A DNA stretch of 51,293 nucleotides, from positions 1 through 51,293 of the IMG/VR virus record IMGVR_UViG_3300020411_002386. The stretch is one strand, 5' to 3'. Below the pieces are notes generated by a model that had not been told where the DNA came from, did no database searches, and saw nothing but the letters and a program-made list of their open reading frames with translations. The DNA is from a virus. Of the stretch, positions 13,006 to 43,531 are shown piece after piece; positions within the stretch are counted from its first letter, which is position 1; each line of letters begins with the position of its first letter. Position numbers and translations under genes: made by a program.

Positions 13006-13033
13006 CATAAATATCAGAAAAAAGGTGTCAAAT

Positions 13034-14731: not shown

Positions 14732-14956
14732 ATGTTAGAAATATTTCAAGGTTTTATATTATTTTTATTTGTAGATGGAACTCCGTTAGAATATACACCA
14801 AAAGATTCTTTGTCTGATTGTTTAAAAACAAAAAGAGAAATTGTAAGAAATACTGGTGCAATGTCTAATAGATATAGGTGTGGTGAAGGACAAATACAAA
14901 TGAAAGAGATTGATGGGAAAATGCATCCTATAGATCTAATAGAAGGAGGCGGATAA
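14732..14956 (+). CDS. Small protein with hydrophobic N-terminus
   Basis: 74 aa. LEIFQGFILFLFVDG looks like a signal anchor; two Cys follow (SDCLKTKRE and YRCGEGQ), perhaps a disulphide outside the cytoplasm. It starts 3 bases after the previous stop and is directly followed by the EF-hand gene. Similar in plan to 24212-24433 and 42414-42602. Function unknown. Confidence 0.65.
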   Translation: MLEIFQGFILFLFVDGTPLEYTPKDSLSDCLKTKREIVRNTGAMSNRYRCGEGQIQMKEIDGKMHPIDLIEGGG

Positions 14957-15916: not shown

Positions 15917-16189
15917 TTATTTTGCCCTCCTTGCTAATACTACTTTAATATCAAAAACTCCATATCGACGAGGCTTCTTTTCTTCTTTGCCTGTCTTAGG
16001 ATCTTTTTCTTTTACGAAGCGAACCAACTTCGCACTAGCTTTAAGTCCTTTTAAAGCTTTTCCTGAAATTCCATCAAGCTTGATAGCTTGCTTAAAAGTA
16101 ACGAATGCATCGTCTTCGTCATAACCTAGATCAAATAAGATTCCAGCGTTTTGACCTGTGTATTCGTTTCCTGTTACATAATTTATCAT
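15917..16189 (-). CDS. ArdC N-terminal-like (DUF1738-type) small ssDNA-binding protein
   Basis: 90 aa. NYVTGNEYTGQNAGIL, AFVTFKQAIKLDG and LKGLKASAKLVRFVK...RRYGVFDIKVV follow the order of the ArdC N-terminal domain (NxxTGxxYxGxN, WxTFKQA, GxKGxxVxxF, F). In ArdC antirestriction proteins this domain binds ssDNA and is followed by a protease-like domain, which is absent here. It is first in an operon with a perfect early promoter, as expected for a protein protecting incoming DNA or acting at once after entry. Confidence 0.72.
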   Translation of the reverse strand: MINYVTGNEYTGQNAGILFDLGYDEDDAFVTFKQAIKLDGISGKALKGLKASAKLVRFVKEKDPKTGKEEKKPRRYGVFDIKVVLARRAK

Positions 16190-16223
16190 AAAATTTCTTC
16201 CTCTTTTTTTATTTTATACTAAT

Positions 16224-16252
16224 AGTATAACTTATTTTTAACCTGATGTCAA
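16224..16252 (-). promoter_or_regulatory. Strong sigma70-type early promoter
   Basis: TTGACA (16252-16247), exactly 17 bases, TATACT (16229-16224) on the minus strand, about 35 bases before the ArdC-like gene. The rest of the 184-base gap holds the dyad at 16240-16258 and a plus-strand late promoter. Confidence 0.88.
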
Positions 16253-16263
16253 CAGGTTTTTTT
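16240..16263 (+). terminator. Dyad with T-run: plus-strand terminator or operator over the early promoter
   Basis: AACCTG (16240-16245) and CAGGTT (16253-16258) flank the -35 hexamer, and on the plus strand the second arm runs into seven T. It may end plus-strand transcripts, act as an operator over the early promoter, or both. A related shorter dyad (AAACT/AGTTT) frames the -35 at 20365-20370. Confidence 0.5.
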
Positions 16264-16339
16264 AATTATTTTTCACTTTTTTTAAATTAATTTAGTTACC
16301 GGGCCCAAAATGTCCCAGGTAAAATGAAGGCTGATTTTC

Positions 16340-16347
16340 GATAAATA
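16340..16347 (+). promoter_or_regulatory. Late promoter variant GATAAATA
   Basis: GATAAATA on the plus strand, 27 bases before the ATG at 16374; one mismatch to the late consensus. Confidence 0.6.
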
Positions 16348-16373
16348 CTCATACCTAAGAGAAGGAATAATAC

Positions 16374-16856
16374 ATGGTAGATCCAGTAACGGCTGTTGCT
16401 GCGGCGACAACTGCCTTTAATGCAATTAAAAAAGGCTTTCAGTTTGGTAGAGATATTGAATCAATGTCGGGTGACTTATCCAGGTGGATGGGCGCTTGTA
16501 GTGATATTAAGAAAGCTGAAGAATATTCAAAGAAGCCGCCTTTATTTAAAAAATTATTTGCAGCTGGTTCTGTAGAAGAAGAAGCTTTGCAAAGTCTTAT
16601 GGCTAAAAAGAAAGCTGAAGATATGCGTAATGAATTAAAAAATATAATATCATTTACGCGAGGGCCAAGTGCCTGGGAAGAGTTACTTCGTACTGAAGCC
16701 AACATTAGGAAGAAAAGACAACAAATGATTTATGATCAAGAAGAACGGCGACGTAAATTTTTTGAAATCGTTCTAGTTATATTAGGAGCATTATTGATAA
16801 CAGGAATGCTTGTAGGCGTGACATACTTAGTAATGTTGGATAGAGGTCTTGTCTAA
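16374..16856 (+). CDS. Conserved marine T4-like phage protein with C-terminal membrane helix
   Basis: 160 aa. The first part (MVDPVTAVAAATTAFNAIKKGFQFGRDIE) resembles a conserved protein of marine T4-like phages, from memory. A long charged helix with likely coiled coil (EANIRKKRQQMIYDQEERRRKF) leads to one membrane span (FEIVLVILGALLITGMLVGVTYLV). Function unknown; late promoter and virion-side orientation suggest a structural or assembly role. AAGGAA-type site upstream. Confidence 0.75.
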   Translation: MVDPVTAVAAATTAFNAIKKGFQFGRDIESMSGDLSRWMGACSDIKKAEEYSKKPPLFKKLFAAGSVEEEALQSLMAKKKAEDMRNELKNIISFTRGPSAWEELLRTEANIRKKRQQMIYDQEERRRKFFEIVLVILGALLITGMLVGVTYLVMLDRGLV

Positions 16857-17174: not shown

Positions 17175-17652
17175 GTGCTTTCCCTTTCCCATAGTCGCCA
17201 TCATATTTTCCAATATTTTCAGCTTCGAAATTTAAATATTGGCCAATACGTGTTCCAGGTTTAAGTTTAAATAAGCCACAAGATACATGCATTACTCCTG
17301 CCATGACACCATTATATCCGGTATCATATAAACCAGTAGTTAGATGAACCCCATTACGATTAAGCGTACTTCTAGTTATAACAAATCCAGCTTCTCCATC
17401 GCCGACTTCGACTTCATTTTCCATAATGACTTCATAAGTACCTGGATATAAATTCCAATACCCATGATCATCAAGAGCCAATTGTTCAGAGCCCCTATGT
17501 TGTTTAGTATCATTATCTAACACAAAATCATTTTTAGATATTTCAAATACTTTACCGACACGTAAATCAACTGCATTAGGTTGTACATCTTTAGGATCTA
17601 CATGGGTAAGGGTAGATGTAGAACCCAAACCCATTATATGTCTCATACTCAT
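17137..17652 (-). CDS. dCTP deaminase/dUTPase-family protein
   Basis: 171 aa. QPNAVDLRVGKVF, LYPGTYEVIMENEVEVGDGEAGFVITRSTLNRNGVHLTTGLYDTGYNG and KPGTRIGQY match the trimeric DCD/DUT fold; GLYDTGYNG is the substrate-uracil loop and RSTLNRNG the phosphate-binding segment. It supplies dUMP or removes dUTP for thymidylate synthesis and so works with ThyX (25089-25760). Pure deaminase, dUTPase or bifunctional cannot be decided by eye. ATGA overlap with queC. Confidence 0.85.
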   Translation of the reverse strand: MSMRHIMGLGSTSTLTHVDPKDVQPNAVDLRVGKVFEISKNDFVLDNDTKQHRGSEQLALDDHGYWNLYPGTYEVIMENEVEVGDGEAGFVITRSTLNRNGVHLTTGLYDTGYNGVMAGVMHVSCGLFKLKPGTRIGQYLNFEAENIGKYDGDYGKGKAHDEKYKEGSTAS

Positions 17653-18455
17653 GCGGCATGTTCCTTTAATACTTGTTCAGCATGAGCCTTAGCAACAGAG
17701 TAAGATACAGGTCCTGTTTCATCAGCATAGGATACTGGATCATCTCTATCTAATTTAATAAAAGCTTCGATACGCTCTACAGAAGAAGAACTCTTATAAT
17801 CAGAATACCAATCATCTTCGATTAATATAGGTTTATAAGAAGTATTAGTTCTTTTATATACTTGATCAAAATCTATTCCTAGACTTTCACAGAGTTTCTC
17901 TCCGTCTTTAAGAATATCAAATTTATCACCTTTTAGATAAGGTGTAAAATAAGTTACTTTCTCAGCATCCCAATTACCTTCACGGAAAGCTTTATCATCA
18001 GCATCTCTAAACTCCTGTCTACAATCAGGATAGATAGCATGATCACCAGCATGGATACCCAATGCTATAGCAGTTTCCTCATTAGTATCTTTTACAACAG
18101 ATAATGCCACAGCCTGAACCAAAGAAGCAAAGATTTTATTACGATTAGGTACAACTGTTTCTTTCATATTATCTTCTGCATAATGTCCTTCAGGAACATC
18201 AGCACCTCCAGTAACTAGAGCTGAAGATAATAGCTCTTGTAAACCATCAAGTTTAATAACTTGATACTTAATCTTATGGCCATGTATAGCCAAATAGTTA
18301 ACTAAGTCTTGGGCTCTTTCTAATTCACATACATGTTTTTGCCCATAATTCATAGACAAAGCAGTTACATTTTCAGCGCCAACTTCATCAATGGCTCTTA
18401 ATAATAAGGTAGAAGAATCCATTCCACCAGATAAAGATACTACAATATTTTTCAT
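17649..18455 (-). CDS. queC: 7-cyano-7-deazaguanine (preQ0) synthase QueC, zinc cysteines lost
   Basis: 268 aa. SLSGGMDSST (7-16) is the ATP-pyrophosphatase loop; ALSMNYGQKHVCELERAQ and VPNRNKIFASLVQAVAL are QueC hallmarks. It makes preQ0 from 7-carboxy-7-deazaguanine. Cellular QueC binds zinc through four C-terminal Cys (SCY...CGxCxxCxxR); here the equivalent stretch is TSYKP...SDYKSSSSVER with Ser or Tyr in their place. Works with FolE, QueD, QueE and DpdA in this block; co-translated with DUF3310 and dCTP deaminase genes (ATGA joints). Confidence 0.9.
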   Translation of the reverse strand: MKNIVVSLSGGMDSSTLLLRAIDEVGAENVTALSMNYGQKHVCELERAQDLVNYLAIHGHKIKYQVIKLDGLQELLSSALVTGGADVPEGHYAEDNMKETVVPNRNKIFASLVQAVALSVVKDTNEETAIALGIHAGDHAIYPDCRQEFRDADDKAFREGNWDAEKVTYFTPYLKGDKFDILKDGEKLCESLGIDFDQVYKRTNTSYKPILIEDDWYSDYKSSSSVERIEAFIKLDRDDPVSYADETGPVSYSVAKAHAEQVLKEHAA

Positions 18456-18700
18456 TTATTTCCTTCCTGTAATTTTTTCAAACGTTTTACTTCTCTAAGA
18501 ATATACCAACCAGCTTTCTCTAGGTCTTCTACTTCTTTATCGATTGCTTCATAACCTTCTTCTTTTTTATTACCCGCTCGAAGAAGATACTTTACGGCAT
18601 TACCTCTGGCAAAGTTAAGACCAAACCATTCTATAATATCAATAGCTTGATAACCACCAGGTGCCTGATAATGTTGCGGATCAATTTTATCTGCGCTCAT
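18452..18700 (-). CDS. DUF3310 (T7 gp1.7-like) protein
   Basis: 82 aa. IDPQHYQAPGGYQAIDIIEWFGLNFARGNAVKYLLRAGNKK...DLEKAGWYI matches the DUF3310 pattern (HY, GNxxKYxxR, DLxKAxxY). The T7 member is a nucleotide kinase; others are unstudied. The place between dpdA-like and queC genes with ATGA joints suggests a nucleotide role here too. Confidence 0.82.
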   Translation of the reverse strand: MSADKIDPQHYQAPGGYQAIDIIEWFGLNFARGNAVKYLLRAGNKKEEGYEAIDKEVEDLEKAGWYILREVKRLKKLQEGNK

Positions 18701-19467
18701 CTTTTTACAGTCTCCTTAAATACTTTTACATTATACATTATATCATCAATATCAAAATCTGTCAACTTATAATCGACAAATGTATCAAAATTAATTTTAG
18801 GTTTATGGGAAAACGGATATCTATCACCTTCAATACCCGCAGCGATAGGATTAGAGGTATCTATAGAATAGACCCAATCGTAATCCTTATAGTGTGAAAA
18901 CTCTTTTATATGCCAAGTTCCTAATAAGTGATGCTTACGAGATTTATTTATATGTGGCTCTAATGCTTTTAAGAGTTTAACTCTTTCCATAGCATGTTCT
19001 CCAGGTTCAGATCCCTTAGCCCAATTAAAACAAAAAGGTATACCGATATATTCTACACCACCTAATTTATCAAACTCAAGATAACATTGAATAAACTCTT
19101 CATGACTATTACCTTGAATAACAGCCATAGCATCAGAATCTAAGTCAGGATACTCTCCCAGAAATTCGATAGTTCTGTCGACAGTTTGTTTATAATCTCC
19201 GAGGACATCAGGGAGGACAAAAACGTTTGGTTTAATTCTATCAACGTAGTCTGCAATGAGGGAGTTTGATAAAGCAGCACCAAGCTCAAAACAACTATTG
19301 TCAAGAATAGTAAACTTCTCGAGAGAATCCACGATACTACGGTAATGCCAGTCTTCAATATAACGATGCAAGAGAATAAAATGATAATCGTTAATAATAT
19401 ATTTTCCATCAGCCTCTGCCTCAGCTAGCGAATGAGGTATTTCGTGGGAGATAAGGGGTAAATTCAT
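18697..19467 (-). CDS. dpdA: DpdA-like DNA transglycosylase (TGT superfamily)
   Basis: 256 aa from the ATG at 19467 (GGAG 6 bases upstream). LDNSCFELG (55-63) and VLPDVLGDYKQTVD (84-97) match the base-exchange active-site segments of the tRNA-guanine transglycosylase fold as seen in phage DpdA proteins, with Asp56 and Asp87 as candidate catalytic residues; AVIQGNSHEEF and IGIPF follow barrel order. DpdA exchanges guanine in DNA for a 7-deazaguanine. Its location in a queC/folE/queE/queD block supports this. It is shorter than bacterial DpdA (about 400 aa). The start overlaps denV by 47 bases. Confidence 0.78.
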   Translation of the reverse strand: MNLPLISHEIPHSLAEAEADGKYIINDYHFILLHRYIEDWHYRSIVDSLEKFTILDNSCFELGAALSNSLIADYVDRIKPNVFVLPDVLGDYKQTVDRTIEFLGEYPDLDSDAMAVIQGNSHEEFIQCYLEFDKLGGVEYIGIPFCFNWAKGSEPGEHAMERVKLLKALEPHINKSRKHHLLGTWHIKEFSHYKDYDWVYSIDTSNPIAAGIEGDRYPFSHKPKINFDTFVDYKLTDFDIDDIMYNVKVFKETVKR

Positions 19468-19912
19468 TAAGGTCTCCATAATAATTAATTTTACTTATAA
19501 ACCGATCTTTATCTTTATACATATTCGGTTTTAAATATATACGTTCTAATATACGAGCTATAGCTATTTTATAATCTTCTTTTGTTGGTGAGTAATCACA
19601 CCACAGGTAATCATCGTATGCTTCTTTAAACCTCTGTCTATGCGCTTTATATCGCGTCTTATCTATGGTTATACCGCGGTTTATAAGATTATTATATAAC
19701 ATTTCATATCTTTTGTAAAGGTATAATCCTTTATTAAAAAAGAATTTACAATGTCCACCATTAAGAGTATATCTATCAGGAAGGTCATCCATAGGATGAT
19801 TCTTCTCAACTCTCTTCTTTACAATATGTAAGAATTGGGTTATTTCTTTATATTCAGCAACAGCATGAACTTGGGTTAGATGATCTGGATCAACTAGATT
19901 TATCCTAGTCAT
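19421..19912 (-). CDS. denV: Pyrimidine-dimer DNA glycosylase (T4 endonuclease V-like)
   Basis: 163 aa, T4 enzyme 138. MTRINLVDPDHLTQVHAVAEYKE matches T4 endonuclease V at the same numbers: Thr2 (catalytic amine), Arg3, His16 and Glu23. LNGGHCKFFFNKGLYLYKRYEMLYNNLINRGI continues the match. It excises UV-induced pyrimidine dimers and nicks the strand. The last 50 residues (RISKINYYGDLNEFTPYLPR region) are longer and different from T4. Sunlit surface water fits this gene. Confidence 0.92.
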   Translation of the reverse strand: MTRINLVDPDHLTQVHAVAEYKEITQFLHIVKKRVEKNHPMDDLPDRYTLNGGHCKFFFNKGLYLYKRYEMLYNNLINRGITIDKTRYKAHRQRFKEAYDDYLWCDYSPTKEDYKIAIARILERIYLKPNMYKDKDRFISKINYYGDLNEFTPYLPRNTSFAS

Positions 19913-20370: not shown

Positions 20371-20756
20371 CAGTTTTTTTCAAGATATTTTAAATTATTT
20401 TCCCAATCATCTTTAAACTTATGATATTTAGGTAATTCAATAAGTCTCTGCTTCTGTTTATAATTAATTGATCCGGGTTTAGATTTCATTCGCCAAAAAG
20501 ATTTTCTTTCTGGTCGAGGTAAATTAGCATCCGGATCATTAGCAAATTCTTTTAGAGGTCCGTTAAATGTCCATGTTTTTATTTCATGATTCCATAACGT
20601 CATAGTAGATCCATCTGGAGATATTAAATCAATACTATATCGATTAATACCTTTGCGTTGAGTATTAATAACTTCCCAATGTTTACCAGATGGATCTTTT
20701 AACTTAATATCTTTGACGACTTGTCCGCCTTTATCTTTTAATAAGACATATACCAT
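20367..20756 (-). CDS. Hypothetical protein
   Basis: 129 aa from the ATG at 20756, overlapping the folE stop as TAATG. KLKDPSGKHWEVINTQRKGINRYSIDLISPDG looks like beta-rich sequence, with a basic tail (RPERKSFWRMKSKPGS). Not QueF: no catalytic Cys in a QueF motif. Function unknown; it sits within the deazaguanine block. Confidence 0.65.
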   Translation of the reverse strand: MVYVLLKDKGGQVVKDIKLKDPSGKHWEVINTQRKGINRYSIDLISPDGSTMTLWNHEIKTWTFNGPLKEFANDPDANLPRPERKSFWRMKSKPGSINYKQKQRLIELPKYHKFKDDWENNLKYLEKNC

Positions 20757-21436
20757 TAACAAGCAAAGTTTTGTTGTAGTTTTATATTATCAAAGAATTC
20801 AGTCTTAGCATGTGATGTATTAAACAAACCTTTTACAACAGTTGTTTGTGTTAAAGAACTATGAGACTCGACGCCTCTATTCTCCATACATCCATGAGTA
20901 GCTTGAGTATAAACAGCTACGTTTTCTGATTCAGTTGCTTTCATTATTTCTCTACAAATATCATTAGTTAATTCTTCTTGTAGAGTTCCTCTACGAGCAC
21001 ACCACTGAACTATTCTAGTATACTTAGAAAGACCAATTACTTTCTCTGTAGGTATAACACCAATATAAGCAACTCCTTTTACTGTCTGATGATGATGACT
21101 ACATAAAGAAGTAAATTCAGCTCTAGCTGTAATCATACCATGATAACTATTCTTACCTGTATTAGGAAAAGAAGTTACATTAGGTGGTAAATGATAACGA
21201 CCAGCCATAATTTCATTAACATACATCTTAGCTAGTCTAGCGCCTGTATCTCTACTATTAGGATCATTCTTAGTATCAATAACTAAAGCATCTAATACTT
21301 CTGTAAACTTTTCAGCTACTTCATCTATTAAATGAGTCCTTTCACCAGGCTCTATATGTTTTGAAATATTATCACCAGCCCAAAAACTATCACCAGCTGC
21401 TAGGATTCTTTTTTTAATCTTTTCTGATACTTTCAC
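20756..21436 (-). CDS. folE: GTP cyclohydrolase I
   Basis: 226 aa. FTSLCSHHHQTVKGVAYIGVIPTEKVIGLSKYTRIVQWCARRGTLQEELTNDICREIM and THGCMENRGVE hold the zinc Cys/His and the catalytic residues of FolE. It turns GTP into dihydroneopterin triphosphate, the first step to preQ0. Start is a GTG at 21436 with AAGGAG five bases upstream, overlapping the preceding stop. First enzyme of the local deazaguanine pathway. Confidence 0.95.
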   Translation of the reverse strand: MKVSEKIKKRILAAGDSFWAGDNISKHIEPGERTHLIDEVAEKFTEVLDALVIDTKNDPNSRDTGARLAKMYVNEIMAGRYHLPPNVTSFPNTGKNSYHGMITARAEFTSLCSHHHQTVKGVAYIGVIPTEKVIGLSKYTRIVQWCARRGTLQEELTNDICREIMKATESENVAVYTQATHGCMENRGVESHSSLTQTTVVKGLFNTSHAKTEFFDNIKLQQNFAC

Positions 21437-22681: not shown

Positions 22682-23271
22682 TTTGTAATTGTCCATTCCG
22701 GTAATACTGCCTCTCTAGGTACTAGCCAGGTTACAAGAACCCGACGGAAACCCCTTTTTATTTTTGTTACGCCGTGTACCACACTTGCGTTATAAATTAT
22801 TGTTTCACCAACTTTAAGTGGTATTTTATGTTGATTAGCATGATCATTCGGATCAAAAGAGTTATTTTCTTTAATTGTAGGATCCCCATCTGATACATTA
22901 GCTTCTTGTATAATTACATCGCCTCCGACTAAATCTTCTTCTTCGACAAGTGTTACAAAACTCATACCACCAACAACTGAATGGCCATCGATGTGTAGTG
23001 CAGCTTCTCCTCCTGGATGATATTCAAGTAAGAAGACATTCTTTAATCTCCATTCTTGTTTAGTAAAAGCTGTTGCCCAATCTATTTTTTTCTTGATAAA
23101 AGATTCAACATACTTTTTGATAACTGGATCTTCGTGTTTAAAAATATTACTAATACGTTGCCAAGTACCTTTCACAGTTTCTAAATCACTATCAAATATT
23201 TCTTTGAGATATTTAATCTCAGGTTCATCAAATAGCCGTTTTACATATACCTGATTAAGACTTGATTTCAT
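22678..23271 (-). CDS. 2OG/Fe(II) oxygenase, prolyl-hydroxylase (PKHD) type
   Basis: 197 aa. YHPGGEAALHIDGHS (H93-x-D95), GGDVIIQ, GETIIYNASVVHGVTKIKRGFRRVLVTW (H166, R176) is the full 2OG-FeII_Oxy pattern. Such genes are frequent in marine T4-like phages. Distinct in fold layout from the four Asp/Asn-hydroxylase-like genes at the left end. It overlaps queE upstream (stop of queE at 23271) and the AsnB-like gene downstream. Confidence 0.88.
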   Translation of the reverse strand: MKSSLNQVYVKRLFDEPEIKYLKEIFDSDLETVKGTWQRISNIFKHEDPVIKKYVESFIKKKIDWATAFTKQEWRLKNVFLLEYHPGGEAALHIDGHSVVGGMSFVTLVEEEDLVGGDVIIQEANVSDGDPTIKENNSFDPNDHANQHKIPLKVGETIIYNASVVHGVTKIKRGFRRVLVTWLVPREAVLPEWTITK

Positions 23272-24212
23272 TAGGTACCAATCGCATTACCAAATAAGTA
23301 ACAATGCAATCTACCAGAAACATTATAGCCTCTTTCAAAAGCGATCTTAGCTACTTCCCCCGCTCCTCGTTCTTGTTCTTCTACTGTAGCTCCAACAGGC
23401 ATAATGTATACAGGCCAATTTATTTTTTCAGCTCTGAACATAGCAAGAACTTCTTCCATCTCTTCCCATTGTTCTTTATGAGGACCCATTACAAATTTTA
23501 ATTGTCCAATATGACTATCAGAGTTCTTATTAGCGTTAAGACCTACTAAATTATAATCTGCAACTGTCTTAGGTTGAATAGCTTTTTCTCTTTTCTCTCC
23601 AGCCACAGACCATAACTTAGGAGATACAGAAAAGAAAACAGGAGCCTGCCATACACCATTATTCATTACACTATTTTTAAAATCATCTGTTAATTCTTGT
23701 GTTCCATTAGTTTCAAATGTTATACGAGCTGGCCGTTTATTACTATGTCCTCTCATTTCCTCATTAATTTCTACGACAGCTTGTTGAGCATGTTTCATTA
23801 AAGGTTCACCACCTGTATAACAAAGATGAGCTCTTTGTCCCGATACAGGATGTACAAAACCACCTTCTGGATTACTTTCCGTTTTAGTAGTTTCAAATAT
23901 CTGTTGATATATTTCTTTAGCTGTTTTATGTCCCATTAAATGTCTAAACTTCTTAGACCATGTATAAGAACTATCACATCCCTTTTCCCATACAGGAAGA
24001 TCTTCAACTCTATTAACAGTTTTAGGATCAAAGTCTTGATAAGGTAATTCCCAAGTATCTGGTTTAGTAGGATGATCTTGTCCAAAGCCATCACATTGTA
24101 AATTACATAAAAAGAATCTTAACCAGAATGTATGCACTCCAGTATATAATCCTTCACCTTGTATAGAATTAAATATTTCTGAATAAAAATATTTTTTTTC
24201 TTTCTTCTCCAT
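23271..24212 (-). CDS. queE: 7-carboxy-7-deazaguanine synthase QueE with split iron-sulfur motif
   Basis: 313 aa, about 90 longer than many QueE. NSIQGEGLYTGVHTFWLRFFLCNLQCDGFG is the radical-SAM start, CYTGGEPLM the SAM-binding GGEP, FETNGTQ and VSPKL follow. The usual CxxxCxxC is broken: C36-x3-C40, then about 38 inserted residues before C79 in GCDSSYTW, which looks like the displaced third cysteine. It rearranges carboxy-tetrahydropterin to CDG, the substrate of QueC. Confidence 0.9.
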   Translation of the reverse strand: MEKKEKKYFYSEIFNSIQGEGLYTGVHTFWLRFFLCNLQCDGFGQDHPTKPDTWELPYQDFDPKTVNRVEDLPVWEKGCDSSYTWSKKFRHLMGHKTAKEIYQQIFETTKTESNPEGGFVHPVSGQRAHLCYTGGEPLMKHAQQAVVEINEEMRGHSNKRPARITFETNGTQELTDDFKNSVMNNGVWQAPVFFSVSPKLWSVAGEKREKAIQPKTVADYNLVGLNANKNSDSHIGQLKFVMGPHKEQWEEMEEVLAMFRAEKINWPVYIMPVGATVEEQERGAGEVAKIAFERGYNVSGRLHCYLFGNAIGT

Positions 24213-24433
24213 TAATCCTCCTTAACTGTAGCTTTTTCTGTAGGTGTAGGAATACAATAAGACACACCATTAAAATCTGGAACATTCATTAACGCGTGGT
24301 TAACATTATGGGCAGCTTCAGCACATTTATAATAATCATAATAAACCATTTTTCTAGACGCTTCTAAATCTCTACCACTACCATCTTCTATTACTAATGT
24401 CCATAATAGAATCATTCCCCATAACGTTTTCAT
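24212..24433 (-). CDS. Small exported-type protein
   Basis: 73 aa. A hydrophobic start (MKTLWGMILLWTLVI) like a signal peptide, then a polar domain with two Cys (KCAEAAH, SYCIPTP), the plan shared by 14732-14956, 25757-26008 and 42414-42602. ATGA joint with queD. Function unknown. Confidence 0.7.
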   Translation of the reverse strand: MKTLWGMILLWTLVIEDGSGRDLEASRKMVYYDYYKCAEAAHNVNHALMNVPDFNGVSYCIPTPTEKATVKED

Positions 24434-24876
24434 CTACTATAGATAGCGCTATTGGCTCCATGTTCTGAACATTCTACACTTTCTACCCAACAACGACCTT
24501 TAGACATACTGTCAATTAATTCTTGAGCAAAGTTAAAAGCATGTTCAGCAAATTTTTCTACTCCAACTCCGTCAACAATATTTAGTTCACAGAGTTCAGC
24601 TGATTCAAGATTTCTAAAATACGTCATCATAGGATCATCTTTATCTAATACAACTTTATGATCAAAACTATCTTCTAACCAGGCCTTTAATGGTTTAAGA
24701 CCGCCAAAATCAACGACCCAGTTTCTTTCATCTAATTCACTACATCCAAAAGTAAACTTAAACGCTAAAGCATAACCATGTAAAAATTTGCAATGACTAT
24801 GAGCTTTAGGTTGTCTAAAGCATGCACTTAAACCAATATTATGGCCATAAGTCTTAGTCGAATAATGTTTTCCCAT
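24430..24876 (-). CDS. queD: 6-pyruvoyl-tetrahydropterin/carboxy-tetrahydropterin synthase-like QueD
   Basis: 148 aa. SHCKFLHGYALAFKFTF, WVVDFGGLKPLKAWLEDSFDHKVVL and VESVECSEHGANSAIY follow PTPS/QueD order. The zinc site differs from E. coli QueD: AAH becomes ACF (18-20) and HGH becomes HGY (33-35), while H26 and H28 are available nearby. Cyanophage PTPS proteins share this look, so it may be a family trait. Second step of the preQ0 pathway. Confidence 0.85.
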   Translation of the reverse strand: MGKHYSTKTYGHNIGLSACFRQPKAHSHCKFLHGYALAFKFTFGCSELDERNWVVDFGGLKPLKAWLEDSFDHKVVLDKDDPMMTYFRNLESAELCELNIVDGVGVEKFAEHAFNFAQELIDSMSKGRCWVESVECSEHGANSAIYSR

Positions 24877-25099: not shown

Positions 25100-25760
25100 G
25101 AAAATCCTCCATTAGTGGAAATATTTTGTTAATTGCTTTACCAATAGCTATAGCTAATTCCATATGTTCTTTTTGGGTTCCATTAGCTGATCTTAATTCA
25201 ACATAGTGAATCCAAGATCTAATAGTTCCATTAACATATAATCTTGATTTAGTATTGCCTTCTGGTAATATAACCCTTGCTTGTTCTTTGGCTATACCTT
25301 TATCTATAGCTTGTTTATAGATTCTTTGAACGTGTTCTATAATAAATTTCTGTTGTGCATCCCACCATATTTTAAGATCTAGATCGGTTGTATCTATACT
25401 ATTCTGTCTATTTTTTTCATCTTGTAATCTAGCTTCTCTAAGTTCAAAAGCTAAGTCATCAATGGGATCAGCATATCGTTGACTAAACTCTTGAAATGAA
25501 AATGATCTATGACGTAATAATTGTCTAGCAATATCTCTAGTGGTTTCTATTTCCATTACTACAGATGCTAATTCAAATGGAGACCAGTGTTTATTTTTAA
25601 TAAGATATTTTAATAATTTACCAGATGTCTCTGAATTATTTTGATTAGAAGGATTAGATACTCTTGCACAATAGGCTATTAAATTTTGAACGTCTGGTTT
25701 TTTAACTGCAACCGGATCGTCGTCATGGGTCATTGTATATCCAAGTAAATTTACTTTCAT
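25089..25760 (-). CDS. thyX: Flavin-dependent thymidylate synthase
   Basis: 223 aa. RQLLRHRSFSFQEFSQRYADP is the ThyX signature RHRxxSxxxxSxRY, and ARVILPEGNTKSRLYVNGTIRSWIHYVELR completes the FAD/dUMP site. It makes dTMP from dUMP using methylene-THF and NADPH. Fits with the dCTP deaminase/dUTPase gene of the same block. Confidence 0.95.
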   Translation of the reverse strand: MKVNLLGYTMTHDDDPVAVKKPDVQNLIAYCARVSNPSNQNNSETSGKLLKYLIKNKHWSPFELASVVMEIETTRDIARQLLRHRSFSFQEFSQRYADPIDDLAFELREARLQDEKNRQNSIDTTDLDLKIWWDAQQKFIIEHVQRIYKQAIDKGIAKEQARVILPEGNTKSRLYVNGTIRSWIHYVELRSANGTQKEHMELAIAIGKAINKIFPLMEDFHGK

Positions 25761-26008
25761 ACCTCAGGGGCTCCTTGTGCTTCTATAGCATCAACAGTGT
25801 CTTGATCAACACAAGATATTATATTTGGTGTATAGTCAGGACCAAATTCCATCCATAGCTTTGTCATAATTTCATCACTATAATCTACAGCAAATTGACT
25901 ACATTCTTCTCTTGAATTAAATACATGTGTTGTAAAAATATAGGCAACTGGAGGTTCAGCTACAGTGCCCATTAAGTGTGCCATTAACGCTACTAAATAA
26001 ATTTTCAT
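25757..26008 (-). CDS. Small exported-type protein
   Basis: 83 aa with a signal-like N-terminus (MKIYLVALMAHLMGTVA) and two Cys in the rest (EECSQF, IISCVDQ). Same plan as 24212-24433. ATGA joints on both sides. Function unknown. Confidence 0.7.
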   Translation of the reverse strand: MKIYLVALMAHLMGTVAEPPVAYIFTTHVFNSREECSQFAVDYSDEIMTKLWMEFGPDYTPNIISCVDQDTVDAIEAQGAPEV

Positions 26009-35121: not shown

Positions 35122-35150
35122 ATTATAACCGATTTTTACGGAAATGTCAC
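35122..35150 (-). promoter_or_regulatory. 43: Sigma70-type early promoter of gene 43
   Basis: GTGACA (35150-35145), 17 bases, TATAAT (35127-35122) on the minus strand, 7 bases before the ATG of gene 43, so the leader is very short. The -35 overlaps the nitroreductase stop. Confidence 0.85.
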
Positions 35151-35860
35151 GCTACTTTTATAGATTCCAGTGTTTTATCGTGAGAAGGAAATATTACATT
35201 ATGATCTTTATGATGTTCTCGTCTAGGTCTATTTTCATCTGCTATACCGACACCCATTAATAATATTGGCCGACCTGAACTTTTTATTATTCTACCAACA
35301 GCTTGAGGATCAAAACATGTGCAACAACCTGTTCTATATCCTAACATATTAGCTGCTAAGTTTACATAACCTGCTGCTAATCCTATAGACATTACTCTTT
35401 GAAAATCAATATTAGGATGTTCTTTACCTGATTCTATTTCTTTTTTAACTTCATCATTACGATATAGATGTGCAATATTATCTGACTCAACTTGTTTTAT
35501 ATATTCGTCTGACCAAGTAAATACAATAAGCAATTGGGCTAAACATTGAGGATTTAATTGAGGCTTACCATCTGGCCAATTATTTGAACCATCACTGGTA
35601 CAATGATATATTTTATCTATAGTCTCTCTATGAGTTATCATATAAGGTTTATAGAAAATATAATTTTGTTTACTTGGACAGGCAGTTAAAGCAGTTTCGA
35701 TAACGTTTAAATCTTGAATAGGAATTTTTTTATTTAAATTCCAATTTCGTTGGCATCTACTACTAGTATGAACGGCACTTTTAATCACTTTACCAAAAGC
35801 ATCATGTGCAGCATTGCCACGAAGATTCTTTTCTAACATTTGTTCTAATTTTTTATGCAT
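35147..35860 (-). CDS. Nitroreductase-family flavoprotein
   Basis: 237 aa. HTSSRCQRNWNLNKKIP, IETALTACPSKQNYIFYKPYMITHRE, VMSIGLAAGYVNLAANMLGYRTGCCTCFD and LLMGVGIADENRPRREHH are the FMN-site segments of nitroreductases. NAD(P)H-dependent flavin enzyme; seen in marine T4-like phages, role unknown. It could also supply reduced flavin for the halogenase at 40732 (inference). Late promoter variant 20 bases upstream. Confidence 0.87.
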   Translation of the reverse strand: MHKKLEQMLEKNLRGNAAHDAFGKVIKSAVHTSSRCQRNWNLNKKIPIQDLNVIETALTACPSKQNYIFYKPYMITHRETIDKIYHCTSDGSNNWPDGKPQLNPQCLAQLLIVFTWSDEYIKQVESDNIAHLYRNDEVKKEIESGKEHPNIDFQRVMSIGLAAGYVNLAANMLGYRTGCCTCFDPQAVGRIIKSSGRPILLMGVGIADENRPRREHHKDHNVIFPSHDKTLESIKVA

Positions 35861-38091: not shown

Positions 38092-38457
38092 CTACTTATT
38101 ACCGATATTATACTTGGGACACAATTCCCAATTATCTTTTTCTTTGAAAGATATAATTTTAATAAGCCTTAGAGGTGCACAGTCTAAATCAGATTTATTA
38201 ATTTCTACTAGTCCCCAATCGCTCATTAATGTTGCGATAGTATTGCGTCGTTGAACATCTGTAAGTTCAAGATTGGCTTTCTTACCATCTAACATGAATA
38301 ATTCTTTGAAGTGTACGATGAAGTATCTACCTTGTTTATGTAGAATATGACATGACTGATATAGCTTTTTATCTTTACGAGATGCTACACCAATTCTAGT
38401 TAAAGTTTCTCTAACTTTTAAAAAATCATCTGGTTCGTTTAAAGTCACTTCCAACAT
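38092..38457 (-). CDS. regA: Translational repressor RegA
   Basis: 121 aa from the ATG at 38457, which aligns with the T4 start (MIEITLKKPEDFLK versus MLEVTLNEPDDFLK). ETLTRIGVAS, KLYQSCHILHKQGRYFIVHFKELFMLDGK and ISFKEKDNWELCPKYNIGN match T4 RegA (122 aa) almost end to end. It binds AU-rich initiation regions of early mRNAs. Upstream in-frame GTG at 38496 is less likely. Confidence 0.95.
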   Translation of the reverse strand: MLEVTLNEPDDFLKVRETLTRIGVASRKDKKLYQSCHILHKQGRYFIVHFKELFMLDGKKANLELTDVQRRNTIATLMSDWGLVEINKSDLDCAPLRLIKIISFKEKDNWELCPKYNIGNK

Positions 38458-38482
38458 ATCCGCTGGAGACCATTCGACTATA

Positions 38483-38860
38483 TTACTTTCTTCCACCTTT
38501 ATTCACCTTTTTCTTTATTATAGTTATTTGTTCAGGTGACAAGAGTGGCATAATTTGACGAGCTTTTTCATTGCTATAGCCATAGTATTCTTTTACCACT
38601 TCAATATCACTTTCGGTTTCAGGTTTTAACCATTTTGAAAATCGTTTACGTTTACGAACTATATTTATAAGAAAGTGATATTGGAGTTTATTGTCAATAT
38701 GATGATACTGATTCATAATATTAGCCAAACCAACAGTATCATAAAAATAAGATAAAGATCTATTTGTAAGAAAAGAATTATAATCTTTCTCTGCTAAATC
38801 ATCGATCATTATATCTTTTTTATTAAGATTAATGCTATTTAAATAATCAAAAGGTTTCAA
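38483..38860 (-). CDS. 62: Clamp loader small subunit gp62
   Basis: 125 aa, T4 gp62 187. PFDYLNSINLNKKDIM, NSFLTNRSLSYFYDTVGLANIMNQ and KRFSKWLKP are gp62-type. The start appears to be a TTG overlapping the glutaredoxin stop (TTGA), giving weak translation; gp62 is needed at one copy per four gp44. Separated from gene 44 by about 3.7 kb, where T4 has them adjacent. Confidence 0.88.
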   Translation of the reverse strand: MKPFDYLNSINLNKKDIMIDDLAEKDYNSFLTNRSLSYFYDTVGLANIMNQYHHIDNKLQYHFLINIVRKRKRFSKWLKPETESDIEVVKEYYGYSNEKARQIMPLLSPEQITIIKKKVNKGGRK

Positions 38861-39156
38861 ACTGTATTTTCTATCCCGCTATCTTCCCAAGCCCATTTAT
38901 TGGATCTTTCAATAGCTTCATTAATTAATTTTGTCATTTTCTTTGCTGTATAGTTCATACTATCAGGGTCTATATTTACGTGAATATCTTCATAATATAA
39001 TTGCGGTACAGTTTTATGACCCTTCTCTTTCATAAAAGCCAATGCTTCAGGATCTTTTTGTACATCTTTAGTATAATATGAAAATTCAGATTCGTCAAGG
39101 AAATTTTTAAAAACATTACAATATGCGCAGGATTCTTGTGAATATAATATTAACAT
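38857..39156 (-). CDS. Glutaredoxin
   Basis: 99 aa. LILYSQESCAYCNVFKNFL has the CxxC redox site, HKTVPQLYYEDIHV the cis-Pro glutathione site. Probably reduces ribonucleotide reductase or other phage enzymes. GGAG upstream of the ATG. Confidence 0.92.
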   Translation of the reverse strand: MLILYSQESCAYCNVFKNFLDESEFSYYTKDVQKDPEALAFMKEKGHKTVPQLYYEDIHVNIDPDSMNYTAKKMTKLINEAIERSNKWAWEDSGIENTV

Positions 39157-39166
39157 TTATTAACTC

Positions 39167-39763
39167 CTATACTTTATGAAAGTTTAATACAAATGAATGA
39201 TCCATTATATGGTTTCTAGGTATTAGATCATGATAATGAACATTAGATAGAAATCCTTTTATCTTAATTCCATTCACTGAATACATCATTAAGTTTAATC
39301 TATTTAGTTGACGTCTTTGTCTCCATTTTATCTCTTTTGCACCATTAGCATCTACATGACGTGTAAAAAACATAATACTAATACCCTCTTTAGCTAATAT
39401 AGGGTTTAAACAATGTTCATATGCCCAATGTTCTGTTTTCCAAAATTGAGATAGTAATGGTTGCTTTTCTCTATTTAGGTTATATGCTCTTAATTTTCTT
39501 ATAACATGTGGTGCTACTTGAGGACATTTTTTAAGATAATATCCATACCAAGGTTTATTATCTTTTAAATATAATACATTATAATCTCTTTGATATGCTC
39601 TCATATATTCATAATGATATGGATTGTCATCCAGGCTCTGAGGCTGTCTATCTTTTGTTTCATGATGTGTCAGCCATAACCATTCATCGATTAAATCATC
39701 GTCATGGTCATCTGTAATATAAAATTTTACATTATCTTGATCTGTATCAAGCAGTTGCTTCAA
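39167..39763 (-). CDS. Unknown protein in the halogenase cluster
   Basis: 198 aa; TTG start at 39763 with AAGGA nine bases upstream, inside the end of the ligase gene. His-, Trp- and Tyr-rich, with NVLYLKDNKPWYGYYLKKCPQ and a C-terminal HYHDLIPRNHIMDHSFVLNF. The layout is loosely like the GNAT-like protein at 3760-4254. It may be an acyltransferase using the product of the ligase (speculative). Confidence 0.6.
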   Translation of the reverse strand: MKQLLDTDQDNVKFYITDDHDDDLIDEWLWLTHHETKDRQPQSLDDNPYHYEYMRAYQRDYNVLYLKDNKPWYGYYLKKCPQVAPHVIRKLRAYNLNREKQPLLSQFWKTEHWAYEHCLNPILAKEGISIMFFTRHVDANGAKEIKWRQRRQLNRLNLMMYSVNGIKIKGFLSNVHYHDLIPRNHIMDHSFVLNFHKV

Positions 39764-40748
39764 AGCTTTGATTCCTTTTTACCTTACGTAGATTATCATC
39801 AATTTTAATTTCATTAACTTTTATAGGATCTATTTCATAAGCGCATTTATGAGTTTTTGAAAATTCTTTTATATTCATGTCACCAGTATAATATAATACA
39901 CAGCGACTAGCCACCTTTCTACATAATGCCAAATCTGCTCCTGTTTCTGTAGCTACTTTTTCTATTTGTTCAGGATAAACTCTATCACCACAGTTTTCCA
40001 TTTTAAACATATTATGCTTACGACCAGCAAAAAAGAATTCACCATCGTCAGTATATTCTATTAGATCACCACTATGCCAATAATCACTTTGCCCTTTCCA
40101 TTTACATGCCCATTCAATAGTACCGTCATCATGATTAATATTTTTATAATCTATTTGTGGATGTATATTATTAAAGTGATAGATATCTTGTTTTTCAGTA
40201 CTCATAATAATTGGAGGGACTTCAGTGCTACCATATGCAGTTGTTACCTTTTGCGCTCCTTTTGCTCTGAGGTCTTCCATAAGTCCATTAGGAGTTACAT
40301 CACTACCAACTTGCATATGTTTAAGATTACTTAAATCTAAAGATTTCCATTTTTTATGTCTATGCCATGTTTTCCAAACATTAGGAAGTATTAACGTATA
40401 AGTTGGATTAATTTCTTTTATTTTATCTGGATAATTTGCTGCCGATGTTTCATAAAAAACATCACAATTAGTCACTGCACCTAGATATAAACTCATACTA
40501 GTAAAGCCAATACCTCTAGGATTATATAATGCTAATATAGTACTATTAGATGATAGATCTAGATACTCAGCATTATACTCAGCTATTGATCGCATTAACT
40601 TAGCATCGTGTACATATTTTTTAGGTTCACCTGTAGTACCACTAGTACTTACAGTTATATTCCAATCATTTAAATAATTTATTATTGCGGATCGAACTAT
40701 ATCATTATTACTTTCAAGATACTCAATACCGTCAATATAGATTTTCAT
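39747..40748 (-). CDS. ANL-superfamily adenylate-forming ligase, N-terminally reduced
   Basis: 333 aa. STSGTTGEPKK (34-44) is the ATP loop, TAYGSTEVPP the A5 motif, YWHSGDLIEYTDDGEFFFAGRKHNMFKM covers A7-A8, and LRKVKRNQ the end (A10-like Lys). Full acyl-CoA ligases or NRPS A-domains have about 130 more residues before the ATP loop; here it starts 33 residues before it. Likely activates a carboxylic acid as acyl-AMP. Overlaps the halogenase by 17 bases, so the two are probably one pathway. Confidence 0.85.
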   Translation of the reverse strand: MKIYIDGIEYLESNNDIVRSAIINYLNDWNITVSTSGTTGEPKKYVHDAKLMRSIAEYNAEYLDLSSNSTILALYNPRGIGFTSMSLYLGAVTNCDVFYETSAANYPDKIKEINPTYTLILPNVWKTWHRHKKWKSLDLSNLKHMQVGSDVTPNGLMEDLRAKGAQKVTTAYGSTEVPPIIMSTEKQDIYHFNNIHPQIDYKNINHDDGTIEWACKWKGQSDYWHSGDLIEYTDDGEFFFAGRKHNMFKMENCGDRVYPEQIEKVATETGADLALCRKVASRCVLYYTGDMNIKEFSKTHKCAYEIDPIKVNEIKIDDNLRKVKRNQSFEATA

Positions 40749-42417
40749 TTAATACCTCCTCATGAGATTTATTATTGTATAAATTTGTTTTACACCAATC
40801 GTATATGTTGGGAGCATAATCAGCTAAAGCTTTGCTTTTTTGTTTGGTGTTTATAAAATTTGCTTCTGCTAATGGTAATAGTTTTTCATCTATATCTAGT
40901 GTACATAATTCATTATCCCATTGCTGAAAATATAATTGTTGTTGAGCCCATTGAACATCAGTAAATATATTTGTAGCATTATATCCTATAGGATCTCTAT
41001 AACCTGCCCAATTCTTTTCTTTGTGATTATGTATACGTCCATACTCGCTCCATTTTTTCCATATGTTATGATCTGTTCTTTTAGATAAAGTAAAATGATA
41101 TGAAATAAAATCTGCAACTTGTTTTTCTAATTTTTGGACTTGTCGTGTATAACCTTTCTTAGCACTAGATGGAATTATATCTCTATCTTTATATTTGCCT
41201 ATAATTCGATCTAACATTTGTATACAAATTTGAGCTATATGTATACTATTAGCCTCCATAGGATCAACAAAACCTTGGCCCATACCAACACCAACTACAT
41301 TATTAATAAATGCTTCTTCATACCAACCGGAATCCCAACTAATATATCTAGGTTCTTTTATAAATTCATAACCATCCCAGTATTGTATAAACTTTTCTCT
41401 AGCTGTATCTTTATCTTCACAATCTTCATCAAAAATATATCCAGATCCCATACGACTATAAAGCGGTATGATAAAATTCCAGCCGTTGTCTTGACAATAA
41501 CTTTGGGTGTATGGTTTCATTTCTAGATATGGATCTTTATATTTTACCGGAGCCACCCATGAAGATTGTGTAGGAACATGCTGACATGTATGCCATTTCG
41601 TAGGCATATTTTTCATTAATAATCTAGTAAAACCAGAACAATCTGCATAAAGATCTGCTTGTAATACTTTACCATCAGTTAAATGAACAGACTTAATATT
41701 TTGTTTATCGTCTAATCTTATATTTTGAATATGGCCTTTTATCCATTCAACATTGTTAGGTATAGCTACCTTGTCTCTAATTATAGTAGGAAATTTTTCT
41801 GCGTCCACATGCCAAGCATAACTATGTGGTGCCATATATTGTCTTCTCTGAACATTACCTGTAAGAAGATCACCATTGTTATCATATGGGGATTTATTAT
41901 TAATAGCAAAATAATACGTATCACTCATATAAGCTGCGGCTTCGTGCCACGAATATTTTCCTCTTTTTACTAATTCTAACCAATAGTCATAGTTTTTATT
42001 ATCAACTCCAGGAGATCCATTATTACAATAGAAATAATCATCAGCCTCAATTGGATTAAAAAAAGACTTTTTAAAAGTATTAGTATTATATGAAAGGGTA
42101 AAGTGATTAAATTGTCGCTCCCAACTTGGAGCATTCCAATGATCAGTTACATGTTTTTTAGGACTTTCACTATTCCATCCTATAAAGTAATTACCAAGTT
42201 TATAGATAGCATTAGTTTCTTGCATCCATGTTTTTTCATCTATCTCAAGCCAATTAAATAAATCACCTAGATATGGTAATGTACTTTCACCTACACCTAA
42301 TATAGGAACTTGAGGTGATTCTATTAAAGTAACTTTTATATCATTATGTCGTTTAGCAATTAAAGCTGCCGTAGCCCATCCTACCACACCACCACCGACA
42401 ACAAGTAAACTTTTCAT
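40732..42417 (-). CDS. Flavin-dependent (tryptophan-type) halogenase
   Basis: 561 aa. VVGGGVVGWATAA (6-18) FAD loop, GVGEST (41-46), K73 in YKLGNYFIGW (the halide-carrying lysine position, K79 in PrnA), ADCSGFTRLL, GWNFIIP (312-318) and GFVDPMEANSI with E388 (E346 in PrnA). The family WxWxIP motif is WxFxIP here. Chlorinates or brominates an aromatic substrate with FADH2 and O2. A marine cyanophage halogenase (VirX1) is known, so the family is established in phages, but this one is fused to no reductase and sits with a ligase. Confidence 0.92.
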   Translation of the reverse strand: MKSLLVVGGGVVGWATAALIAKRHNDIKVTLIESPQVPILGVGESTLPYLGDLFNWLEIDEKTWMQETNAIYKLGNYFIGWNSESPKKHVTDHWNAPSWERQFNHFTLSYNTNTFKKSFFNPIEADDYFYCNNGSPGVDNKNYDYWLELVKRGKYSWHEAAAYMSDTYYFAINNKSPYDNNGDLLTGNVQRRQYMAPHSYAWHVDAEKFPTIIRDKVAIPNNVEWIKGHIQNIRLDDKQNIKSVHLTDGKVLQADLYADCSGFTRLLMKNMPTKWHTCQHVPTQSSWVAPVKYKDPYLEMKPYTQSYCQDNGWNFIIPLYSRMGSGYIFDEDCEDKDTAREKFIQYWDGYEFIKEPRYISWDSGWYEEAFINNVVGVGMGQGFVDPMEANSIHIAQICIQMLDRIIGKYKDRDIIPSSAKKGYTRQVQKLEKQVADFISYHFTLSKRTDHNIWKKWSEYGRIHNHKEKNWAGYRDPIGYNATNIFTDVQWAQQQLYFQQWDNELCTLDIDEKLLPLAEANFINTKQKSKALADYAPNIYDWCKTNLYNNKSHEEVLNENLY

Positions 42418-42602
42418 TGTTTTTTAAACTCATTCAAACATATATATTTTTTATTAGTATTAAAGTTAGCTACATTATACATTTGTCTTGCTTCGGCTGC
42501 TATTTGGCAAGATGGTTTATAGTTAAATCTATCTTCTGTTTTAGTAGTTATAGTACCATCAGAATTAAGCACTACTAATATTAATATCCACCACTCACTC
42601 AT
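42414..42602 (-). CDS. Small exported-type protein
   Basis: 62 aa: hydrophobic start (SEWWILILVVLNSDG) then a polar domain with two Cys (PSCQIAAEA, YICLNEF). Same plan as 14732-14956, 24212-24433 and 25757-26008. ATGA joints with gene 44 and the halogenase. Function unknown. Confidence 0.7.
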   Translation of the reverse strand: MSEWWILILVVLNSDGTITTKTEDRFNYKPSCQIAAEARQMYNVANFNTNKKYICLNEFKKQ

Positions 42603-43531
42603 TTAAACCCTATATTAGCCATGATTTCAGTTAGGCAAGCGACTGTATTTAATTCATGATCAGCGACAAAAGCATCTTTATATTGATAGTCAGCTAATAT
42701 TAATACTAACTGAGGAATACTTTTGGATTCTACTAATTCATTCATATTATCATATAGTCCTCTATAGATAGTGGCTGTATCAATATCCATATGATTAACT
42801 ACCCAAGATCTCATCTTTTTAAAGTCTTTTGCTTTTAAATAAACTGTAAGATCTTGAAAAGTATTATTACTAGTATTATTGGACCCCAGTAATTGATTAC
42901 CACCCATAAGTCTTCGTTGTGCTTCATTTAATACTCGTCTCCAATCTGGTGCATGTTTCATAATAAGATCAGCTGCATCTTTAGCATCTGCAGAGACTTT
43001 TTCTTTATTTAGTATATCTAAAAAATGTTTATGAAATTGAGCAGCCAGTTCAGCTAATTCTTTTTTAGTAGTATTAAATTCATATACACCACATCTGGAG
43101 TGTAGAGGATCTATAATTCTATTTTTAAAATTACAAGTAAGAATAAATCTACAATTACTAGCAAATTCTTCTATAAATGCACGAAGAGCTGGTTGAGTAG
43201 ATTGAGGGTTAAGGTAATCAGCCTCGTCGAGAATAACTACCTTAACCCCACCTGACAACGATACGCTAGAAGCAAATTGTTTTATTTTACCCCTTAGCGT
43301 ATCGATGTTGCCTTCCTCTGAGCCGTTAATCATTATATAATCCAGGTTCAGTTCATTACAAAGTGCCTTTGCTACTGTTGTTTTTCCAGTACCAGCGGTG
43401 CCGCTGAAAAGCATATTAGGCAGATCACCATTCTTTACAATCTCAAGAAACGTTTGTTTAAGAGAAGGAGGAAGAATCGTTTCTTCGATCGTTGCAGGAC
43501 GATACTTTTCTACCCAGAGGAAGTGTTCCAT
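42599..43531 (-). CDS. 44: Clamp loader ATPase subunit gp44
   Basis: 310 aa, T4 gp44 319. WVEKYRPATIEETILPPSL, SGTAGTGKTTVAKAL (Walker A), VVILDEADYLNPQSTQPALRAFIEEF (Walker B, DExx) and CNFKNRIIDPLHSRC (SRC) are the RFC-type signatures. Loads the gp45 clamp with gp62. Confidence 0.97.
   Translation of the reverse strand: MEHFLWVEKYRPATIEETILPPSLKQTFLEIVKNGDLPNMLFSGTAGTGKTTVAKALCNELNLDYIMINGSEEGNIDTLRGKIKQFASSVSLSGGVKVVILDEADYLNPQSTQPALRAFIEEFASNCRFILTCNFKNRIIDPLHSRCGVYEFNTTKKELAELAAQFHKHFLDILNKEKVSADAKDAADLIMKHAPDWRRVLNEAQRRLMGGNQLLGSNNTSNNTFQDLTVYLKAKDFKKMRSWVVNHMDIDTATIYRGLYDNMNELVESKSIPQLVLILADYQYKDAFVADHELNTVACLTEIMANIGFK

Follow-up and report, generated by a model that had tools for sequence, protein, structure and literature searches.

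Gene order and gene products between gp44 and gp62

The subject of this work is a set of three adjacent genes, encoding a predicted flavin-dependent halogenase (HAL), a short AMP-forming ligase (LIG) and a protein of 198 amino acids (aa) with a predicted acyltransferase fold (T198), that lies among the replication genes of the IMG/VR virus record IMGVR_UViG_3300020411_002386. The window, as the whole record of 51,293 bases is called here, is probably a genome fragment; a relative, L040, sits in a record of 146,762 bases. T4-type replication genes follow each other on its minus strand in the order gp47, gp46, gp45, a 100-aa open reading frame (ORF), gp44, a 62-aa ORF, HAL, LIG, T198, a glutaredoxin gene (GRX), gp62 and regA (Table 1), with gp45 to gp47 named from their translations.

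T4 genes 44 and 62 are translationally coupled. A sequence-only reading of the window had described about 3.7 kb of overlapping genes parting the two, and this was borne out: by the gene coordinates the gap is 3,738 nt, with five overlapping or near-touching genes inside, all on the minus strand. The genes listed in that reading (halogenase, ligase, an unknown and a glutaredoxin) were confirmed, and the 62-aa ORF has to be added to the list. L040 has a counterpart of this ORF at the same position (63 aa, 40% identical). The 62-aa ORF and those at 14732-14956, 24212-24433 and 25757-26008 share a hydrophobic N terminus and Cys residues and, as judged by eye, are perhaps one paralogous family. 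Neither a coding-strand terminator-like site nor a TATAAATA site occurs between 38861 and 42602, and promoter, terminator, late-promoter and Rfam scans of the block gave nothing above chance. The interval from gp44 to gp62 thus reads like a single polycistronic stretch, and the inserted genes may be co-expressed with the clamp-loader genes.

Table 1. Genes at and around the insertion site of the window, and shortened ligase frames in two relatives
Feature	Position	Strand	Support	Remarks
gp44 clamp-loader ATPase, left border of the insertion site	42599..43531	-	phrog_168 1.5e-109, PF00004	
62-aa ORF	42414..42602	-	weak phrog_3766 0.0021	hydrophobic N terminus; 4-nt overlap each with gp44 and HAL
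HAL, predicted flavin-dependent halogenase, 561 aa	40732..42417	-	PF04820 3.2e-83; GGGVVG, K73, E388	4-nt overlap with 62-aa ORF
LIG, short AMP-forming ligase, 333 aa	39747..40748	-	PF00501 2.4e-14, profile 170-336 of 384	17-nt overlap with HAL
T198, predicted GNAT-fold acyltransferase, 198 aa	39167..39763	-	AlphaFold2, Foldseek and VIA	TTG start; 17-nt overlap with LIG
GRX, glutaredoxin-like protein	38857..39156	-	PF00462 3.3e-12	10-nt gap before GRX; 4-nt overlap into gp62
gp62 clamp-loader subunit, right border	38483..38860	-	PF16790 3.3e-13, phrog_225 1.6e-43	
RegA translational regulator	38092..38496	-	PF01818 1.7e-43	anchor for the junction sample
Shortened ligase frame, relative L016	2910-3557			still open, without nucleotide loop
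Shortened ligase frame, relative L154	38-682			still open, without nucleotide loop

HAL matches the Pfam Trp_halogenase model with 280.5 bits (cutoff 21) over residues 4-491, and its profile matches the PDB structures of Thal, RebH, PrnA and VirX1 (6qgm, at 1.3e-62). In the alignment to Thal, HAL has the FAD-binding GGGVVG, and G8/G10/G13 together with the catalytic Lys and Glu, K73 and E388, are invariant in 14/14 aligned phage halogenases. By family HAL is a flavin-dependent halogenase, with that activity predicted. The region of the halogenase motif WxWxIP reads WNFIIP, keeping the first Trp, Ile and Pro and having Phe for the second Trp. Matches to HAL occur in 66 of 50,697 deposited phage records, including two named 'Bacteriophage sp.' (MT835646, MT837902). 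A gene at 35147-35860 with a weak nitroreductase-family match (0.00087, below cutoff) is a candidate flavin reductase and was seen among the fetched loci in L041 only.

LIG matches Pfam AMP-binding with 53.4 bits (cutoff 29.9) and carries the motifs TSGTTGEPK, YGSTEVPP, SGD, GRKHNMFK and NLRKVKRNQ. All five patterns are found in 23 of 25 LIG proteins, the exceptions being those of L016, which is shortened, and L029, which is cut before the last motif; in L030, L032 and L048 the first motif lacks its terminal Lys. The earlier suggestion that the ligase would activate an acid is supported by these retained adenylation motifs. A full-length acyl-coenzyme A (CoA) or acyl-acyl carrier protein synthetase was considered and rejected, since the match starts at profile position 170 of 384 and NCBIfam acyl-CoA ligase models score far below their cutoffs, and we class LIG as a short AMP-binding enzyme only. 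Scanning bacterial contigs with a broad ligase alignment yielded three relatives of only 22-26% identity and hence no close cellular source at that sensitivity. Among deposited phages, the window LIG matches two Acinetobacter phage records at 20% identity and no cyanophage record, the L031 ligase matches one faecal phage record, and the L048 ligase matches five at 18-23%. None of the 50,697 records has both a HAL and a ligase match at the thresholds used (ligases of the window, L031 and L048; seven ligase records, two from Acinetobacter phages and five faecal).

T198 has no match in Pfam, PHROG or NCBIfam (Pfam and NCBIfam up to E 1), and neither T198 nor the 195-aa ORF of L031 discussed below has one in the deposited phage records. 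An AlphaFold2 model built from 14 homologues (pLDDT 85.9, pTM 0.83) has the topology strand, two helices, three strands, helix, strand, helix, two strands, which is that of GNAT proteins. Foldseek returned 238 PDB matches at E 0.001 or better, and the 50 listed are GNAT-type entries. The best are the acyl-homoserine lactone (AHL) synthases BjaI and LasI (2.5e-06 and 3.0e-06); in the VIA comparison LasI (Z 10.4, root-mean-square deviation 4.2, 155 aligned residues) is tied with other GNATs, rows within Z 1 being counted as ties. T198 was not assigned to the LuxI-type AHL synthase family, as no family model matched it up to E 1, and the resemblance is one of fold only. The T198 model thus supports a predicted GNAT-fold acyltransferase, in keeping with the earlier suggestion that the 198-aa protein may transfer the acid.

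Co-occurrence and inheritance of the three genes

Used as single sequences against viral contigs, HAL and T198 each gave no relative, and it was alignment-based scans that found relatives. In the 27 contigs anchored on T198, LIG lies directly upstream in 25/25 testable cases, L148 and L156 being truncated; HAL is found upstream of LIG in 21/21, with L035, L153, L154 and L158 also truncated at that point. To the extent of their sequence, all 27 belong to the 44/62 site, and the cassette or its visible part occupies that site in 16 contig clusters, the window included. LIG seemed to be missing from L019-L021 and T198 from L037, but a frame-level hidden Markov model search showed both absences to be artefacts of ORF calling. 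Because the homologues repeat in the same order in 16 clusters, with ratios of nonsynonymous to synonymous substitution (dN/dS) of ~0.06-0.17, the frames of the block are not there by chance. Among near pairs these ratios are 0.06-0.08 for HAL, 0.06-0.13 for LIG and 0.07-0.17 for T198, indicating that all three genes are kept by selection.

The site itself was sampled independently of the trio, from the best 80 by similarity of at least 594 RegA-anchored matches. Thirteen were cut before gp44 and 4 had no gp62, and these 17 were left out of the counts. In the remaining 63 complete junctions the trio is present in 5 (L019, L063, L067, L074 and L076, L074 having a shortened ligase), no trio gene in 58, and one or two of the genes in 0. 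The spacing between 44 and 62 at the 58 trio-less junctions is <=150 nt in 8 and >150 nt in 50, and exceeds 450 nt in 33. Among named phages the spacing is 131 nt in C48C1, while Melnitz-3 has a single 60-aa ORF and HTVC008M a hypothetical gene and a 2-oxoglutarate (2OG) oxygenase-type gene at the junction. By eye, further cargo in L092, L107, L117, L136 and L096 comprises an FAD oxidase plus SHMT-like gene, exonuclease-like and GuaB-like genes, and a glutaredoxin fused to a HAD-type domain.

The 44-62 site is a general cargo hotspot. A synteny comparison at this junction had been proposed with the sequence-only reading; it shows unrelated cargo at the site, and the pathway logic nevertheless survives, as the trio is all-or-none, moves as a unit, and its ligase-halogenase pair recurs elsewhere. 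The inclusion of glutaredoxin in the pathway was not borne out. GRX is present in 45/63 complete junctions, 40 of them trio-less (40/58), and its distances track those of gp62 (r 0.47, p 0.006) and not those of LIG (r -0.04). Since it is common without the trio and follows gp62, GRX is a site resident and probably outside the pathway.

Pairwise protein distances were compared by Mantel tests across 11 loci, the loci dropped including L016 for its short LIG and L002 and L041 for partial HAL. Within the trio they are correlated (HAL-LIG r 0.40, p 0.02; HAL-T198 r 0.61, p 0.002; LIG-T198 r 0.44, p 0.002), whereas against the backbone the coefficients are -0.03 for LIG-gp62 and 0.06 for T198-gp62. 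Other genes are swapped among relatives: a desaturase, an AhpD-like protein and, as judged by eye, small 2OG-oxygenase-like proteins. A fatty acid desaturase gene elsewhere in the window (5579-6187, PF00487 1.8e-07) is homologous to the desaturase inside the cassette of several relatives.

LIG was also found away from the 44/62 site. In nine contig clusters it follows a repetitive tail-like gene and precedes a gene for a ~200-aa protein, GN209, which is in view in 8/9 (L014 is cut). The 480-580-aa gene before this LIG was considered as a second halogenase, which was rejected because it encodes the repetitive tail-like protein. In the LIG tree, seven close tail-locus LIGs nest inside the 44/62-site LIGs, the starred branches forcing two changes, which indicates that LIG has moved horizontally between lineages. 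The 14 tail-locus records tested, all fragments, show neither a T4-type gp23 nor anything that matches the window gp43. A tail-locus record, L145, has two desaturase-like genes by eye (12736-13455 and 16074-16835) near structural-type genes.

LIG accompanies a halogenase in three contexts beyond 44/62. At the L048 tail locus, LIG and HAL (30% identical to window HAL) overlap and GN209 follows; in a further setting HAL is followed by LIG in L030, and by two genes and then LIG in L032; and in L031 HAL (22% identical to window HAL) faces, in convergent orientation, a 195-aa ORF and a 223-aa LIG that lie behind a repetitive gene. Inspection by eye had suggested a GNAT upstream of HAL in L030 and L032, but no Pfam, NCBIfam or PHROG match was obtained, L032 being covered in one of these searches. 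The stretch 7440-10736 of L144, from the tail-locus lineage, has gp47/gp46-like genes followed by a halogenase fragment, and the halogenase of S-B64 likewise follows a recombination endonuclease gene.

The GN209 model is of low confidence (pLDDT 64) and also matches GNATs; the tied VIA rows neither choose nor exclude a GNAT subfamily for GN209 or T198. The pyrophosphate loop [RQ]xxGx[GA] of canonical acetyl-CoA-dependent GNATs occurs in 0/14 T198 and 0/10 tail-locus-type proteins. Direct homology between T198 and GN209 was considered, but their match is weak (hhalign E 0.0074, probability 5%).

Interpretation and competing explanations

We find HAL-LIG-T198 best explained as a mobile three-gene biosynthetic module that sits in the 44/62 cargo hotspot and is read with the clamp-loader genes, at a probability of roughly 0.58. 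Computation gave the order of the genes, their presence at the site as all or none, their joint inheritance, the retained motifs, the predicted fold and the purifying selection. We infer the chemical steps, their order, the co-expression and a small-molecule product. LIG, as a short ANL-type enzyme, would convert ATP and a carboxylic acid to an acyl-adenylate or onward to a thioester, T198 would transfer the acyl group to an amine, giving an amide, and HAL would place a halogen on an electron-rich aromatic ring of either partner or of the product. The desaturases, 2OG-type oxygenases or AhpD-like proteins exchanged between relatives may tailor the product. The sequence-only proposal of a small biosynthetic pathway wedged into the replication core thus stands as to the coherent enzyme set, present all or none between 44 and 62, and falls as to the glutaredoxin.

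Several observations weigh against this reading. HAL distances also track regA (r 0.35, p 0.02) and GRX (r 0.34, p 0.04) and T198 distances track GRX (r 0.33, p 0.03), so that the unit is not cleanly separable from the backbone, and T198 diverges fast (mean distance 0.62), with dN/dS saturated in distant pairs. HAL and T198 are intact in the L016 cluster (L074, L152), yet the ligase between them is a frame of 215 aa that has neither the TSGTTG loop nor the C-terminal motifs, and L154, whose HAL is off the contig, has the same split-score pattern; active ligase would then be dispensable in some phages or supplied otherwise. The N-terminal part found in known ANL enzymes is missing from LIG (~170 profile positions), and for HAL the nitroreductase-family match is only a candidate flavin reductase partner. 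A halogenase was found in 9/22 ligase-bearing records searched and was absent from 13 of the 14 tail-locus records (G001-G014, fragments with several near-copies); the one exception, G011, has it as a contig-end fragment beside gp46/gp47-like genes ~42 kb away. The weak T198-GN209 match means that the same third enzyme at both loci is not demonstrated.

Unlikely in our estimate, if the best placed of the alternatives, is that the three genes decorate a macromolecule such as the phage tail fibre or a host protein, with LIG charging the acyl group, the GNAT loading it onto protein amino groups and HAL halogenating Trp or Tyr. The tail locus speaks for this, as LIG there follows the repetitive tail-like gene in 9/9 contig clusters, with GN209 coming after LIG in all 8 where it is in view (in L048 with HAL between), weak tail-fibre PHROG matches (0.0067, 0.037) back the tail-like name, and the short LIG and 195-aa ORF of L031 lie behind another repetitive structural-type gene. 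In S-RIM44, likewise, an annotated structural protein precedes the tandem cyanophage halogenases by a few genes. However, there is no tail gene near the 44/62 site, the HTVC008M halogenase adjoins terminase genes and that of S-B64 a gp46-type recombination endonuclease gene, and orthology of the tail-locus GNAT-like protein and T198 is not demonstrable.

A more specific form of the small-molecule chemistry, which we rate as doubtful and slightly below tail or host protein decoration, is that the phage makes a halogenated N-acyl signal or antibiotic. The stripped-down LIG would hand its acyl-adenylate, with no CoA or carrier protein, to the AHL-synthase-like GNAT, and the product would be halogenated, optionally desaturated and released by infected cells, the module moving between unrelated phage lineages. 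If this is true, what infected cells give off would be a signal or an inhibitor of phage origin.

A shade less probable again is that the site is a cargo hotspot only, where the three genes hitchhike without a common pathway. The other sequence of >450 nt at 33/58 trio-less junctions, by eye with oxidase plus SHMT-like, exonuclease-like and GuaB-like genes, would fit this, as would the persistence of shortened ligases next to intact HAL and T198, but it does not sit well with a trio that is wholly present or wholly absent, keeps its order and has mutually correlated distances, nor with the LIG-HAL pairing in three more contexts. Very improbable is nucleic-acid modification, in which T198 would be a Mom-like GNAT with DNA or tRNA as its target: it fits the replication-cluster position, Mu Mom is among the T198 Foldseek matches (8bv8, E 3.9e-05, rank 47) and the window also has a deazaguanine gene set, yet many GNATs that act on proteins or small molecules rank above Mom, and LIG with a GNAT-fold protein is also found outside replication clusters.

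A biosynthetic module would tie a phage halogenase to two further enzymes, narrowing its chemistry to adenylated, acyl-transferred and halogenated products, and would show that phages carry mobile pathways, beyond single auxiliary genes, inside replication gene clusters. With genes of ~1.7, 1.0 and 0.6 kb, the set is small and open to direct testing.

Elsewhere in the window, QueC-, DpdA-like, FolE-, QueE- and QueD-like genes (17649-18455, 18697-19479, 20756-21436, 23271-24212 and 24430-24876; NCBIfam E 2.7e-36, 1.5e-04, 3.7e-44, 9.6e-10 and 5.3e-09, all under curated cutoffs) are likely to serve 7-deazaguanine DNA modification. The window also encodes a SET-domain protein (2570-3055, PF00856 2e-09) among several oxygenase-like genes, a phage-encoded PnrA-like ABC transporter substrate-binding protein (8563-9579, PF02608 1.1e-54) and a 283-aa protein that resembles class II aminoacyl-tRNA synthetases but does not reach full enzyme length (11577-12428, NCBIfam aspartate-tRNA ligase 3.7e-06, under cutoff).

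Comparison with known systems

FeeM-type N-acyl amino acid synthases have a GNAT-like fold, the kind predicted for T198, and make N-acyl aromatic amino acids. LasI and BjaI (PDB 1ro5, 5w8a) are the top fold matches of T198, but their identity to it is 9-14%, their Z scores are tied with those of many GNATs and T198 is not placed in the LuxI family. For LIG, the only solved structures matching its profile at E 0.001 or better are those of coronafacate ligase Cfl (PDB 7a9j, 7a9i; 5.3e-05); the score is weak, and Cfl has 537 aa while LIG has 333 and lacks the N-terminal part.

Phage halogenases and a different, predicted cyanophage halogenating cluster are already known, and what is new by our sequence searches is the HAL-LIG-T198 combination, found in 0/50,697 phage records. 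In the open-licence literature we found no paper joining phage genomes with an AHL synthase, nor a halogenase with viral contigs and a biosynthetic gene cluster, which does not imply absence from print. Halogenases were reported in 20/153 cyanophages (PMC10452541). According to the part of the literature consulted, their native role is still unsettled, and a suggested protective (antibiotic) role was called speculative (PMC2984593).

VirX1 of cyanophage Syn10, a flavin-dependent halogenase (PDB 6qgm; PMC8407142), is a phage enzyme of the same kind, matched by the HAL profile as given above. Window HAL is only 22-23% identical to the two tandem Syn10 halogenases, and no ligase is annotated beside them. 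The Pelagibacter phage HTVC008M resembles the window in being a marine T4-like phage with a halogenase that, together with a phytanoyl-CoA dioxygenase, is inserted in a core gene pair, there the terminase genes, the halogenase overlapping its neighbours. Its halogenase differs in being 26% identical, at another site and without ligase or T198. The jumbo cyanophage S-SSM6a has a predicted 10-gene halogenating cluster, for which the proposed roles are synthesis of a halogenated secondary metabolite or decoration of polysaccharide (PMC7824862), and as described in the text available to us it likewise clusters a phage halogenase with 2OG oxygenases. That description names carbamoyl transferases, a HemK-like methylase and cupins and no AMP-ligase or GNAT, whereas the window has a core of LIG and T198 placed between replication genes.

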